Source: Synechococcus sp. Nb3U1
GTDB taxonomy: Bacteria; Cyanobacteriota; Cyanobacteriia; Thermostichales; Thermostichaceae
DNA length: 64,000 nt
Direction of reading: 5' to 3'
Assembly: GCF_021533835.1 (NCBI RefSeq)
Contig: NZ_JAKFYQ010000003.1
Coordinates: 62,001-126,000, forward strand
Made by a program: the position numbers and the translations under genes. Shown in pieces: positions 10,128 through 14,866 of this stretch (positions are counted from its first letter, which is position 1; each line of letters starts with the position of its first letter). Below the pieces are notes generated by a model that saw nothing but the letters and a program-made list of their open reading frames with translations, searched no databases and was not told the DNA's origin.

Positions 10128-10847
10128 ATGGGGGCAAGGGTGAACAGCGTACACAAGACCACTCAGCAGGCTTCTAGCAAGCAAGCCATCTTGGTGTATC
10201 TGCGCAAGTCGGGTCAGGCCAACGCCCAAACCCTGGCGGAACACCTGCACATTTCTCCTCAGGCGATTCGGCGGCACCTCAAGGATCTGGAGGCGGAGGG
10301 GCTGATCATTCATATTCCTCAGCAGAACGGGTTGGGTCGTCCACAACATGTTTATCAGCTCAGTCGCTTGGGAGAAGAGCAATTCCCCGCTAGCTACGAC
10401 GAGTTTGCTCTCGGACTTCTCAGCACCTTGGCAGAAACCATGGGATCCGAACAAATGGGATCCATTTTGCACCACCAGTGGCAGCGCAAGGCCCAGGAAT
10501 ACCAGTCCCAGATTGGTGCAGGATCCCTGCAGGAACGGGTAGAGCGCCTGGTGGAGTTACGGCAATTGGAGGGGTATATGGCGGAGTATTACCGCTACTC
10601 TGAGGAAATGGCTCCCCCAGAAAAAGCCACCCCACCAGAGGCTGAGCAATACGTGTTGATCGAACACAACTGCGCCATTGCCCAAATAGCCCAGACCTTT
10701 CCCAGCGTGTGTGGATATGAGTTGGAAATGTTTGCAGCGGCCCTGCCCGATTGCCAGGTGGAGCGCATCAACTGGCAGGTGAATGGGGAACATCAGTGCG
10801 GCTACCTGATTGCCAAGCCTGTTTCAGAATCGATCCAAGAACTGTAA
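10128..10847 (+). CDS. sufR: Fe-S cluster biogenesis repressor SufR
   Basis: About 239 residues from ATG 10128 (GTG 10140 is an alternative, neither has a strong ribosome site). N-terminal winged-helix DNA-binding domain: AILVYLRKSGQANAQTLAEHLHISPQAI... with recognition helix PQAIRRHLKDLEAEGLI. The C-terminal part carries four cysteines spaced C-X12-C-X13-C-X14-C (from HNCAIAQ to HQCGYLI), the exact pattern that binds a 4Fe-4S cluster in cyanobacterial SufR. Family role: the cluster-loaded dimer represses sufBCDS, and loss of the cluster under iron or oxidative stress relieves it. It is divergent from sufB and probably autoregulated. Confidence 0.95.
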   Translation: MGARVNSVHKTTQQASSKQAILVYLRKSGQANAQTLAEHLHISPQAIRRHLKDLEAEGLIIHIPQQNGLGRPQHVYQLSRLGEEQFPASYDEFALGLLSTLAETMGSEQMGSILHHQWQRKAQEYQSQIGAGSLQERVERLVELRQLEGYMAEYYRYSEEMAPPEKATPPEAEQYVLIEHNCAIAQIAQTFPSVCGYELEMFAAALPDCQVERINWQVNGEHQCGYLIAKPVSESIQEL

Positions 10848-10978
10848 CTCTCCCCGAAACCTAAAGACCGAAACCTGAGACGACTGGCGGGCTACCAAAG
10901 AACTTAACCTTCCCAGGTGCAGTTCAGTGCTTTTTTCGGGTATAGTCATCTCATACGAGTTTCAAGTTTGTGCTGTCT

Positions 10979-11053
10979 ATGTCTCTGCGTGCTGCCTTCT
11001 TTGGCTACTTTACCTTTCCCTGGCATCGACCAGGGCGGATGGGTGGCGCGTAA
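10979..11053 (+). CDS. Predicted aromatic leader peptide of the DAHP synthase attenuator
   Basis: A 24-codon frame beginning MSLRAAFFGYFTFPWH and ending with TAA at 11051-11053. Codons 7-15 hold four Phe, one Tyr and one Trp (FFGYFTFPW), far above chance, right before a gene for the first step of aromatic amino acid synthesis. The CCC-TGG codons (11018-11023) are one arm of the first hairpin of the attenuator, which is where a stalled ribosome should act. A GTG three codons upstream (10970) is an alternative start, and the ribosome-binding site is weak. A TATAGT at 10941-10946 could be the -10 element. The composition resembles known Phe leader peptides, the assignment is inference. Confidence 0.7.
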   Translation: MSLRAAFFGYFTFPWHRPGRMGGA

Positions 11054-11093
11054 ACGATAACCAAGGTTTACCGAAGTCAGTCCTGAAGCCCTG
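11018..11093 (+). promoter_or_regulatory. Attenuator: alternative hairpins 1:2 and 2:3
   Basis: Segment 1 CCCTGG (11018-11023) pairs with segment 2 CCAGGG (11030-11035) in a perfect 6-bp hairpin with a 6-base loop. Segment 2, as CAGGGC (11031-11036), can instead pair perfectly with segment 3 GCCCTG (11088-11093). Segment 3 is also the left arm of the terminator. A ribosome held at the Phe/Tyr/Trp codons would cover segment 1, freeing 2 to pair with 3 and preventing termination. Confidence 0.7.
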
Positions 11094-11116
11094 AGCCTAG
11101 TGCCGGGGCTTTTTTT
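11086..11116 (+). terminator. Intrinsic terminator of the attenuator (hairpin 3:4)
   Basis: AAGCCCTG (11086-11093) pairs with CGGGGCTT (11104-11111) including one G-U, with a 10-base loop, followed by a run of seven T (11110-11116). It lies between the leader peptide and the DAHP synthase start with no gene end nearby, so premature termination is its likely role. Confidence 0.8.
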
Positions 11117-11167
11117 AATGGTCTGATCCTGCCCAAACCCTACTTGCTCTCCATGAAGGACAAATCC

Positions 11168-12238
11168 ATGCCCCCCCAAACTGACAACTGCAATATCCAG
11201 GAGGTGATGCCCCTGATCGCCCCTAGCCTGGTCAAAGCCAAGTTCCCCCTTACGGAAACGGCAGCCAAAGTCGTGCTCTCTACCCGGCAGGCCATCCGCA
11301 ACATCATCCACGGACGGGATCCCCATCGCTTGGTGGTGATTGTCGGCCCCTGTTCTATTCATGACCCGGAAGCAGCCTTGGAGTATGCTCATCGTCTGAA
11401 ACGGGTGGCGGATCAAACCCAGGAGCACCTGGTGATTGTGATGCGCACCTACTTTGAGAAGCCTCGTACCACAGTGGGCTGGAAAGGCTTGATCAACGAT
11501 CCCCACCTGGATGGCTCCTGTGATATTGCGGCAGGCTTAGAGCTGGCCCGTACAATTCTGCTGCGGGTGAATGAGATTGGCCTGGCTTGTGCCACCGAAA
11601 TGCTGGATCCGGTTACTCCCCAGTACACAGCCGACTTGGTTAGTTGGGCAGCCATTGGCGCCAGAACCATCGAAAGTCAAACCCACCGGGAAATGGCCAG
11701 TGGCCTGTCGATGCCCGTCGGCTTCAAAAATGGCACGGATGGTCGTCTGCAGATTGCTCTCAACGCCATTCTCTCCGCCAGCCATCCCCACAGTTTTCTG
11801 GGTATTGGGCAAGATGGCATGACCGCTTTGGTGAAAACCACTGGGAACCCGGATCGGCACATTGTCTTGCGGGGTGGGGGTGGCAAAACCAACTATGGCC
11901 CTGAGGATGTGGAGCGGGCGGCGCTGCTGATGGAGGAGCAAGGGATCCCCCGCTCGGTGATGGTGGATTGTTCCCACGACAACTCCAACAAGGACTATCG
12001 CAACCAGGGATCCGTCTGTCGGGAGGTGCTGCGGCAGTATCGGGCTGGCCAGCGGGCTCTGATGGGGGTGATGCTGGAGAGCAACCTTAACCCTGGCAAG
12101 CAAACCTGGTGCGAAGGGGCACCCCTCAAGCATGGCGTGTCTATTACCGATGGCTGCATTGGCTGGTTAGAAACCGAAGACCTGTTACAGGAGATGGCAG
12201 CTACGGTGGCGGGGGGAGCCTTAGCCCTCAGCCATTAG
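11168..12238 (+). CDS. aroG: 3-deoxy-7-phosphoheptulonate (DAHP) synthase, class I
   Basis: 356 residues from ATG 11168, chosen because AAGGA lies six bases upstream. Class I DAHP synthase condenses phosphoenolpyruvate with erythrose 4-phosphate, the entry step of the shikimate pathway. Seen: VVIVGPCSIHDPEAALEYA (metal-binding Cys in the GPCS motif), MRTYFEKPRTTVGWKG, the substrate-binding core LDPVTPQY, GARTIESQTHREMASGL and KNGTDG, HIVLRGG, VDCSHDNS with metal His, and GVMLESNLNPG. Length fits the AroF/G/H type (~350). Preceded by the predicted attenuator at 10979-11116. Whether it is the Phe- or Tyr-sensitive isozyme cannot be read, so the symbol marks the family rather than feedback type. 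Confidence 0.95.
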   Translation: MPPQTDNCNIQEVMPLIAPSLVKAKFPLTETAAKVVLSTRQAIRNIIHGRDPHRLVVIVGPCSIHDPEAALEYAHRLKRVADQTQEHLVIVMRTYFEKPRTTVGWKGLINDPHLDGSCDIAAGLELARTILLRVNEIGLACATEMLDPVTPQYTADLVSWAAIGARTIESQTHREMASGLSMPVGFKNGTDGRLQIALNAILSASHPHSFLGIGQDGMTALVKTTGNPDRHIVLRGGGGKTNYGPEDVERAALLMEEQGIPRSVMVDCSHDNSNKDYRNQGSVCREVLRQYRAGQRALMGVMLESNLNPGKQTWCEGAPLKHGVSITDGCIGWLETEDLLQEMAATVAGGALALSH

Positions 12239-12451
12239 TCAGAGCAACCCTGAGTTTTACTTTATTACTTAGTATTGGATTTCTTGATTTCTTAAGGAAT
12301 CCAAAAGGGATTGGGGAAATCGGGCAACTCGCTCCTATCGTCGAGTCATTGTCTCGTCATGCCCTGTGGAATCAGGCTTTGGGGATCCCGGTACTGGATC
12401 TGGATCCCGTCGGCTGTCCAGACAGTTTTCAGTCAGGGTGCGGAGGATGTG

Positions 12452-12898
12452 ATGGAGCTACAAATCCCCACTAGTGTCAGCAGCAACGGTCGGCAACCCT
12501 ACCCGGATCCCAGTCAAACCCCTCAACGCCCGCCTGAGCAGTTGCGGGATCGGCTGATCGTGTCAGGCCTGCGCTACTACGGCTATACCGGCTTCGATGA
12601 AGCGGAGCGGGCTTTGGGGCAATGGTTTGAGGTGGACTTTGAGCTGTGGGCAGATCTGCGCCCGTCGGCCATGAGCGGTCAACTGTGCGACACCCTTGAC
12701 TACCGCTCTGCCGTAGCTGGGATCGCGGAACTGGTGAGAAGCAATCAGTTTGTCCTCATCGAGAGTTTGGCCGAAGCCATTGCCGAGATGGTGCTACGCG
12801 AGACGGGGGCCAGCAAGGCTAAGATCCGGTTGACCAAGTGCCATCCCCCGATCCCGGATTTAACGGGGCGGGTCACCCTGGAAATTGTTCGCCCCTAG
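12452..12898 (+). CDS. folB: Dihydroneopterin aldolase FolB
   Basis: 148 residues from ATG 12452 with GGAGG (12442-12446) five bases upstream. FolB converts 7,8-dihydroneopterin to 6-hydroxymethyl-dihydropterin plus glycolaldehyde in folate synthesis. Seen: LIVSGLRYYGYTGFDEAERALGQ with the catalytic Tyr/Glu region, WFEVDFELWADLRPS, LCDTLDYRSAVAGI, LIESLAEAIAEMVL and the end KAKIRLTKCHPPIP. An extra ~28 residue N-terminal tail (TSVSSNGRQPYPDPSQTPQRPPE) is not part of the enzyme fold. The stop overlaps the miaE GTG by one base. Confidence 0.93.
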   Translation: MELQIPTSVSSNGRQPYPDPSQTPQRPPEQLRDRLIVSGLRYYGYTGFDEAERALGQWFEVDFELWADLRPSAMSGQLCDTLDYRSAVAGIAELVRSNQFVLIESLAEAIAEMVLRETGASKAKIRLTKCHPPIPDLTGRVTLEIVRP

Positions 12899-13491
12899 TG
12901 TTGGCTGCTGTGGCTACCCTACAACTGGCTGCTCCCACCTCCGAGGCCTGGATCGAACAGGCCACCCAGCACATCGACTTGATCTTGCTAGACCACGCTA
13001 ACTGCGAGAAAAAAGCAGCGGGCAATGCCCTCAGTCTGTTGTTTCGCTATCCTGCCAACGGGCAACTGGTGGAAGCTCTCTCCCCGCTGGCCCGCGAGGA
13101 ACTGCAGCATTTTGAGCGTGTGCATCGTCACCTGCAACGGCTGGGGATCCCGGTGAAACCCCTATCTGCCGCCCCTTATGCCAGTCGCCTGAATCAGCAC
13201 CTGCGCCGCCCCGAACCAGAGCATTTGCTGGATGCGCTGCTGTTGGCTGCGATCATCGAAGCACGGAGCCACGAACGCTTGGGTTTACTTGGGATCCATG
13301 CGCCAGAGGCGGAACTGCGACAGTTTTACCTGTGGCTGACAGCTGCCGAAGAACGACATTTGCAGCTTTACTTAGATTTGGCTTTAGCCCATTTTCCGGC
13401 TGAGCAGGTACAGCAACGTCTAGATGCACTCTTGCCCATAGAAGCCGAGATTTTGTCCACGCTTTACCCCGAGCCTCGTGTTCACAGCTAA
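12898..13491 (+). CDS. miaE: tRNA 2-methylthio-N6-isopentenyladenosine hydroxylase MiaE
   Basis: 197 residues from GTG 12898, which shares one base with the folB stop. MiaE is a diiron enzyme that hydroxylates the modified A37 of certain tRNAs. The ferritin-like diiron ligands are visible: E in NCEKKAAGNAL, the E-x-x-H of LAREELQHFERVH, then ARSHERLGLL and the second E-x-x-H region TAAEERHLQLYLDL. The IDLILLDHANCEKKAAG opening is characteristic of the family. Translational coupling with folB is likely. The gene end overlaps a possible early start of the following kinase. Confidence 0.92.
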   Translation: MLAAVATLQLAAPTSEAWIEQATQHIDLILLDHANCEKKAAGNALSLLFRYPANGQLVEALSPLAREELQHFERVHRHLQRLGIPVKPLSAAPYASRLNQHLRRPEPEHLLDALLLAAIIEARSHERLGLLGIHAPEAELRQFYLWLTAAEERHLQLYLDLALAHFPAEQVQQRLDALLPIEAEILSTLYPEPRVHS

Positions 13492-13531
13492 GTCGGCCTC
13501 GAGCCTCTCCCACAACCTCAATGCAACCCAA

Positions 13532-14866
13532 ATGTTCCAGTCGACGCGGCAGCGATTGGCTCTCTGGTACACCGGGATCACGGCGGTGTTTTTATTGCTG
13601 TTTGCAGCCAGCTTCTACTGGTACGTGCAGGCAACTCTGATCGAGCGGGTGGATGATACCCTCGGCCATGTGGTGGAAGTGGTGGAGCGGTCTTTGGTGG
13701 TGGATGAGAGCCTTTTGGATCCACAGCAAGCTCGCCATAGCCTCGAGGCCAGTTTTCGGGATGATCCCAGCACCCTAGAAGATGATCACATCGACTTGGA
13801 ATGGTTTGGCCCGCAAGGGGAGCTGATCTGGTCTACGGTTCCGGGCGGGATCCCTGCCCCTTTGCTCACGGATGGATCCCTGCATACCGCCCGCATTAAC
13901 CCTGGCTACTGGCTGCGGCAATTTACCGAACCGCTGCTGGCTGGAGATACGCCGCTGGGCTACTTGCGGGTGAGTCATCCCTGGTTTGAGGTTAGTAAGC
14001 CCACCCGACAGTTGATTTGGGATCTTTCTTTGTGGGGGGTGGCTAGTTTGGCCTGTGTTGGCTCAATTGGGTGGGTGCTATCGGGTTTGGCCATGCAGCC
14101 AGTGCGCCACTCCTATCAGCAGCTCAAGCAATTTACCGCCGATGCCTCCCATGAACTGCGCAGCCCTCTGGCTAGCATTCAAACCACGGTGCAGGTGGCT
14201 TTGGCCGATCCGCAGCTGGAGGCAGACACTCGGCAGCGTTGGCAGGTGGTGGAACGTCTGAGCTTGCGGTTGGGCCGCTTGGTAGATGATCTGCTGTTTT
14301 TGGCCCGTCAGGACAGCGGCATGGCCCCCTTCCAGCCCCGTTGCTGTGCCGTGGATGCACTGCTGCTGCAGGTGGTGGAAGAACTGCAAGGTTTGGCCCA
14401 TCGAAAAGGGATCCGCCTGAGCCTGGAGATTGCCGATCCGTCACAGTTAGCACCCGCGGATCCCTTCGGCCTGTGGGGAGATGAAGACCTGCTGGCCCGT
14501 CTCCTGACCAATTTGTTAGAAAATGCCCTGCTGCACACTCCCGTTGATGGGCAGGTGCAGGTCAGGCTAGAGCAACGGCTGAAAGCCGGATCCCCAGACC
14601 TATTGATTCAGGTGCGAGATACTGGCACTGGGATCCCACCCCAGGCTTTGCCCCATGTGTTTGATCGCTTTTATCGGGTGGATCCGGCTCGCAGTGGGGA
14701 TCCTGATCGGGTGGCCGGTTCGGGGTTGGGCCTAGCGATTGTGAAAAGTATTGCCGAGCAACACCAAGGGCAGGTGAAGGTGGAAAGTACCCTCGGCAAG
14801 GGATCCACGTTTCAGGTGATTTTGCCGCAGCGTCAGACTGAACTCTGTACTCCAGAGAATCTTTGA
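13532..14866 (+). CDS. Two-component sensor histidine kinase (RppB/NrsS-like)
   Basis: 444 residues from ATG 13532. The frame is open to a GTG at 13478 inside miaE, but STRQRLALWYTGITAVF is the usual start of this class. Two membrane helices (residues ~12-32 and ~165-185) bracket a ~130-residue periplasmic sensor. The cytosolic part has the phosphoacceptor H-box FTADASHELRSPLASIQ, N-box LLTNLLENALLHTP, G1 DTGTGIP, F-box FDRFYRVD and G2 GSGLGLAIV. The segment ERVDDTLGHVVEVVERSL resembles cyanobacterial RppB/NrsS kinases, which usually sit next to the regulator RppA/NrsR. No response regulator is adjacent here, so the partner is elsewhere. Confidence 0.85.
   Translation: MFQSTRQRLALWYTGITAVFLLLFAASFYWYVQATLIERVDDTLGHVVEVVERSLVVDESLLDPQQARHSLEASFRDDPSTLEDDHIDLEWFGPQGELIWSTVPGGIPAPLLTDGSLHTARINPGYWLRQFTEPLLAGDTPLGYLRVSHPWFEVSKPTRQLIWDLSLWGVASLACVGSIGWVLSGLAMQPVRHSYQQLKQFTADASHELRSPLASIQTTVQVALADPQLEADTRQRWQVVERLSLRLGRLVDDLLFLARQDSGMAPFQPRCCAVDALLLQVVEELQGLAHRKGIRLSLEIADPSQLAPADPFGLWGDEDLLARLLTNLLENALLHTPVDGQVQVRLEQRLKAGSPDLLIQVRDTGTGIPPQALPHVFDRFYRVDPARSGDPDRVAGSGLGLAIVKSIAEQHQGQVKVESTLGKGSTFQVILPQRQTELCTPENL

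Follow-up and report, generated by a model that had tools for sequence, protein, structure and literature searches.

Leader attenuators in front of DAHP synthase genes are already known, as the accounts at hand show for Corynebacterium glutamicum and Acholeplasma. In C. glutamicum, aroR precedes the DAHP synthase gene aroF; its leader carries Phe-Tyr-Phe and is described as responding to Phe limitation, not to that of Tyr (Neshat et al., 2014, as presented in PMC11802643 and PMC4046766). The Acholeplasma motif uORFC-13-1 comprises a predicted Phe-encoding uORF and a terminator before aroF (PMC8632094). For cyanobacteria, a 2016 survey stated that there were no reliable data on attenuation (PMC4833913), and no later case was found in the open-access literature searched.

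Here, we analysed a 64,000-nt stretch of the genome of Synechococcus sp. Nb3U1 (the window), for which an earlier note had described a 24-codon frame with FFGYFTFPW in its middle, an intrinsic terminator and three competing pairings before a DAHP synthase gene; all of them were found where it had placed them (Table 1). Conservation and modelled RNA folding make it highly probable that a ribosome-mediated leader-peptide transcription attenuator controls this single DAHP synthase gene.

The locus resembles aroR, as far as the latter is described in these accounts, in placing a Phe-Tyr leader peptide before a DAHP synthase gene, but it has four to five Phe/Tyr codons and a Pro-Trp lying on an RNA arm; aroR is actinobacterial, and the comparison extends to function and gene context only. 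With uORFC-13-1 it shares a Phe uORF and a terminator before DAHP synthase, both predicted in either case, whereas the Acholeplasma motif comes from Tenericutes and was described with its own structure. The enterobacterial pheL attenuator (RF01859, Phe_leader) likewise combines a Phe-rich leader with mutually exclusive antiterminator and terminator and gives the same ribosome-position profile (see below), but controls a different gene, pheA. The trpL attenuator (RF00513, Trp_leader) follows the same three-arm logic; however, the Trp codon of the window lies at the switching boundary, and its leader stop is located about 15 nt beyond arm 2 instead of between arms 1 and 2. The trp/pheA layout put forward in the earlier note is thus supported with regard to the leader peptide, the three arms and the pheL-like profile, but not for the position of the stop codon.

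On the level of sequence families, the Rfam covariance models RF01859, RF00513 and RF00230 (T-box) gave no match to the window element, true pheL leaders scoring 93-138 bits with RF01859, and Rfam holds no matching family for the window leader. The leader core in relatives (10997-11023) and the pheL leaders of four loci (L128, L093, L133 and L077) have TTTACCTTCCCCTG (peptide FTFP) on RNA arm 1 in common, a likeness that probably arose by convergence, the arm being built from Phe/Pro codons.

Table 1. Features of the DAHP synthase leader region, in window coordinates.
Feature	Position	Strand	Basis or remark
TATAGT, probable -10 element	10941..10946	+	sequence; genus-wide conservation of GGGTATA(G/A/T)T ahead of the leader
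Leader peptide frame MSLRAAFFGYFTFPWHRPGRMGGA	10979..11053	+	ATG...TAA, 24 codons; predicted from sequence
Control codons FFGYFTF, then Pro-Trp	10997..11023	+	codon comparison in 8 species; ribosome-position folding
RNA arm 1, CCCTGG, on the Pro-Trp codons	11018..11023	+	invariant, pairs with arm 2 in 8/8 species
RNA arm 2, CCAGGGC	11030..11036	+	arm 1 or arm 3 pairing in 8/8, G-U at most
Hairpin GTAAAC:GTTTAC inside the antiterminator, contains the leader stop	11050..11071	+	other helices instead in the two other genera
GTCCTG, near-copy of arm 3	11080..11085	+	can take arm 2, leaving the terminator free
Intrinsic terminator, hairpin 11085-11112 and T run	11085..11116	+	folding; z -2.9 to -5.1 in 8 species
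RNA arm 3, GCCCTG, common to antiterminator and terminator	11088..11093	+	invariant in 8 species
AAGGA Shine-Dalgarno of DAHP synthase	11156..11160	+	conserved in all 8
Class-I DAHP synthase (aroFGH type), 356 aa	11168..12238	+	TIGR00034 483.6 bits (cut-off 173.2), PF00793

Results

Gene context and origin of the DAHP synthase

The gene is the single DAHP synthase match in its genome. Its start was assigned to the ATG at 11168, behind the conserved AAGGA; another ATG at 11153 is not conserved. Upstream on the same strand lies sufR (TIGR02702), which ends at 10847, and no gene ends between this position and 11168, in agreement with the earlier note's strong intrinsic terminator without a gene end nearby. 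Downstream on the same strand, 12311-14866 encodes FolB (dihydroneopterin aldolase), MiaE (tRNA hydroxylase) and a sensor histidine kinase.

Phylogenetic analysis of 111 class-I DAHP synthases placed those of the family together with two Nitrospirota sequences (100/100) and apart from the main cyanobacterial clade; identity is 63-66% to the former and at most about 58% to the latter. This placement suggests that the gene was probably acquired by horizontal transfer or replacement. Since the two Nitrospirota loci, admittedly a small sample, show no leader-terminator arrangement, the leader may have been gained within this family.

Conservation of the leader within the family

The family set comprised the window's genome and seven further members, i.e., eight genomes from three genera. 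In all eight, the DAHP synthase gene is preceded by the leader frame, the antiterminator and the terminator, and the distance between frame and RNA arms is preserved as well, so that both the frame and the pairing pattern recur in the close relatives to which the earlier note had pointed. The arm positions, measured from the start codon, are 39 and 52 nt throughout, the leader-to-arm 2 spacing is gap-free, and the leader frame is the only one open in every genome. Transcription is predicted to start near 10953, downstream of the probable -10 element; a promoter scan yielded no match to a consensus promoter.

While sufR is the upstream gene in four genomes, a different one is found in G007, G003, G002 and G001, and the element hence travels with the DAHP synthase gene. 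This bears on the idea that the terminator simply belongs to sufR, the small frame being a chance reading frame. The shared strand and the sufR end at 10847 would allow it, but some 240 nt separate sufR from the terminator, with a conserved promoter-like element in between, and frame and terminator are unchanged in the four species with another upstream gene. These synteny breaks largely refute such an assignment, which we regard as barely credible.

The leader core is FFGYFTFPW-like in six genomes and reads VFFYFTYPW in G002 and LFFYFSSPW in G001, the latter starting with GTG. Phe8, Tyr10, Phe11, Pro14 and Trp15 are invariant, and codons 7-13 always include four to five Phe/Tyr codons at shifting places, several core positions having His, Tyr, Ser, Val or Leu in place of Phe; the first six codons and the tail vary freely. 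The synonymous-biased conservation anticipated in the earlier note was not seen among the eight genomes; the core is partly invariant already at the DNA level, which is why such a bias is not demonstrable here. The invariance of TGG may possibly stem from its role as RNA arm 1.

A covariance model (R1) built on the eight family loci was used to search 390 cyanobacterial genomes. It recovers these loci at E <= 1.2e-23 and gave nothing convincing among the 382 other genomes; a match in G112 (E = 4e-4) was rejected as lying inside a coding region. Likewise, the regions upstream of 60 further cyanobacterial DAHP synthase genes contained no plausible leader, two filter-passing frames being discarded for a terminator that overlaps the frame. 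The only other genome of the order, G048, has no leader in its short upstream gap of about 100 nt. Matches to the motif [FY]F[ST][FY]PW in other cyanobacteria fall by chance inside unrelated genes, and no leaders were seen before trpE and pheA of the own genome.

Antiterminator and terminator

Frame, arms, terminator and their conservation are read from the sequence, and the mutual exclusivity of the pairings is computed. Arm 1 pairs with arm 2 as CCCTGG (11018-11023) with CCAGGG (11030-11035), arm 2 with arm 3 as CAGGGC (11031-11036) with GCCCTG (11088-11093), and the terminator forms from AAGCCCTG (11086-11093) and CGGGGCTT (11104-11111). The antiterminator, which the earlier note had taken for a 6-bp pairing, is in fact a long compound stem of three tiers (-24 to -31 kcal/mol), of which the 2:3 pairing is the outer part only: CAGGGC:GCCCTG is followed by GGG..CCC in the middle and a hairpin at the inside. 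This shape is present in all three genera despite diverged inner sequence.

The terminator of the window has a folding energy of -15.4 kcal/mol (z = -3.05), a stability equalled by 2 of 300 shuffles, and is non-random in every species (Table 1). For the antitermination segment, the departure from randomness is modest (z -1.7 to -4.7 across the eight species), and the fold of the whole 142 nt is nothing unusual by itself (z = -1.31). Changes in the named 6-bp helices always keep a standard pair and are one-sided throughout, and the compensatory double changes for which the earlier note had hoped are absent from the 1:2 and 2:3 helices of the eight species. Conservation without covariation is expected, because each arm serves two helices; compensatory changes would nevertheless be stronger evidence.

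When a ribosome occupies codon 13, the equilibrium energies of antiterminator and terminator are within about 3 kcal/mol of each other in seven of the eight species; in the window, the terminator has a slight advantage (-32.7 vs -30.4). The switch consequently depends on folding order: given these near-equal energies and, in the window, the near-copy GTCCTG able to take arm 2, the model requires antiterminator formation ahead of the synthesis of arm 4, an order likewise followed in known attenuators.

Ribosome-position folding

The transcript, as it stands before arm 4 is made, was folded with a ribosome placed codon by codon, taking the base 13 nt after the start of the A-site codon as the first free one. 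A ribosome on the core Phe/Tyr codons leaves a probability of the 2:3 pairing, P(2:3), of 0.79-1.00 in every one of the eight species, which drops to 0.09-0.50 on the Trp codon and to 0.00 past it. In each species, the change takes place immediately behind the last Phe/Tyr codon, and per species only 0-5 of 300 dinucleotide shuffles reached the observed switch. The Phe/Tyr values stay high across offsets, with a single dip to 0.55 in G006, whereas the Trp result is offset-dependent: an offset of 10 nt gives about 1.0 and one of 15-16 nt a value near 0. Four genuine pheL attenuators, subjected to the same calculation, show an "on" plateau along the Phe codons and turn "off" directly behind the last of them, and this profile thereby calibrates the assumed ribosome offset.

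Owing to the folding profile, the pheL calibration and the rarity of matching shuffles, the element looks built for sensing Phe/Tyr codons. The earlier proposal that several aromatic residues are read at once is therefore supported for the Phe/Tyr codons (P(2:3) of at least 0.79), but not for Trp, since a ribosome halted on that codon would already shield half of arm 2 and P(2:3) amounts to roughly 0.1-0.5. Trp sensing appears doubtful, at best marginal, in this model, the Trp codon being located at the switching boundary and TGG also forming arm 1.

The invariant Pro-Trp and the conserved core peptide could alternatively reflect TnaC-like stalling of the nascent peptide by a free amino acid or another ligand instead of uncharged tRNA, the more so as a stall near Trp would occur at the switching boundary. 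However, arm 1 already accounts for Pro-Trp, a stall at or beyond Trp would favour termination, and neither the freely varying N-terminus and tail nor the variety of residues (His, Tyr, Ser, Val, Leu) that stand for Phe at several places in the core fit a stalling peptide; we consider this very unlikely. A constitutive premature terminator that gives rise to a stable small RNA or small protein, with read-through independent of amino acid supply and the frame perhaps translated, is somewhat less remote, though still improbable. No other element is as strong as the terminator (z about -3 to -5), equilibrium folding in the window leans slightly towards the terminated state, and amino acid regulation of read-through is a predicted trait. 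Such a terminator would nonetheless leave unexplained why arm 2 is complementary to arm 3 in all eight species and why four to five Phe/Tyr codons persist, and it offers no account of a switching point just behind the last of them.

Similar leaders in other bacteria

Outside the phylum, a leader with an aromatic run followed by a terminator was seen at five of 80 named DAHP synthase loci. Three of them precede a class-I DAHP synthase, namely in Xanthomonas sp. F10 (L136, 2817-2953; leader MNASCRSFYFWYYGFPMPLAEEGSRSP, run FYFWYYGF), a Proteobacteria MAG (L138, 2820-2952; MKSLQSVFYFYFFAFSTPLVEERASGK, run FYFYFFAF) and a 'Devosia' MAG (L109, 1860-1992; MNLRAAYSYWYFSTGSRWQPKGAV, run YSYWYF). In each of these three, a GCTGGCGG-like arm 2 comes after the aromatic codons, the leader is followed by a GCCGCCAGC...GGCGGC terminator, and the computed switch goes off once the last aromatic codon has been passed. 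A Trp codon sits well inside the sensing zone of both the Xanthomonas and the 'Devosia' leader. No Rfam family exists for these three leaders. Less distinct leaders of a similar kind, each with a strong terminator-like hairpin, were observed in an Anaerolineae MAG (L100, 2798-2955; YFSFFSWYGYF) and a Polyangiaceae MAG (L086, 2828-2970; FFWFGYW).

R1 matches the 'Devosia' leader with 39.6 bits, which is suggestive only, because shared aromatic codons explain much of the match. Homology of the window leader to it is not claimed, as nucleotide comparison also favours the Polyangiaceae leader. Taken together, the data suggest a wider, perhaps convergent, class of DAHP synthase leaders.

Discussion

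The element upstream of the DAHP synthase gene is real and conserved, and it is most likely a functional attenuator for sensing Phe/Tyr supply, by a mechanism that was computed. We infer its transcription start, its translation, its response to amino acids and the kinetic order of folding, and transcription-translation coupling in cyanobacteria is assumed as a premise. RNA polymerase would start near 10953, with a ribosome following on the leader frame. When charged tRNA-Phe (perhaps also tRNA-Tyr) becomes scarce, the ribosome would wait on the Phe/Tyr codons at 10997-11017 and leave arm 2 free to build the long compound stem with arm 3; with arm 3 engaged, the terminator could not form and DAHP synthase would be transcribed. 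At plentiful supply, the ribosome would run through Pro-Trp and cover arm 2, or arm 2 would re-pair with arm 1; arm 3 could then pair with arm 4, and transcription would end near 11116.

Novelty, as suggested in the earlier note, may be upheld for the phylum, given the survey and the open-access search described above, but not for the type of control, since DAHP synthase attenuators are on record in the accounts of aroR and uORFC-13-1. Apparently, this is the first well-supported leader-peptide attenuator in cyanobacteria, i.e., a known control type in a new phylum. A more far-reaching option, which we put forward tentatively, is that multi-aromatic attenuators of class-I DAHP synthase genes (Phe/Tyr, in some Trp) are widespread yet unregistered, occurring in Thermostichaceae, Xanthomonas, other Proteobacteria and possibly Chloroflexota and Myxococcota. 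The pooling of charged aromatic tRNAs would then set shikimate entry, and the family described here would also hold the first genuine ribosome-mediated cyanobacterial attenuator, gained on a horizontally acquired gene.

From the computed switch it is predicted that starvation for Phe/Tyr relieves termination and that starvation for Trp does so little or not at all. A conserved cyanobacterial case would show that transcription and translation can be coupled in these cells closely enough for ribosome-mediated control. Moreover, it would offer a simple genetic handle on the carbon flow into the shikimate pathway of thermophilic cyanobacteria.
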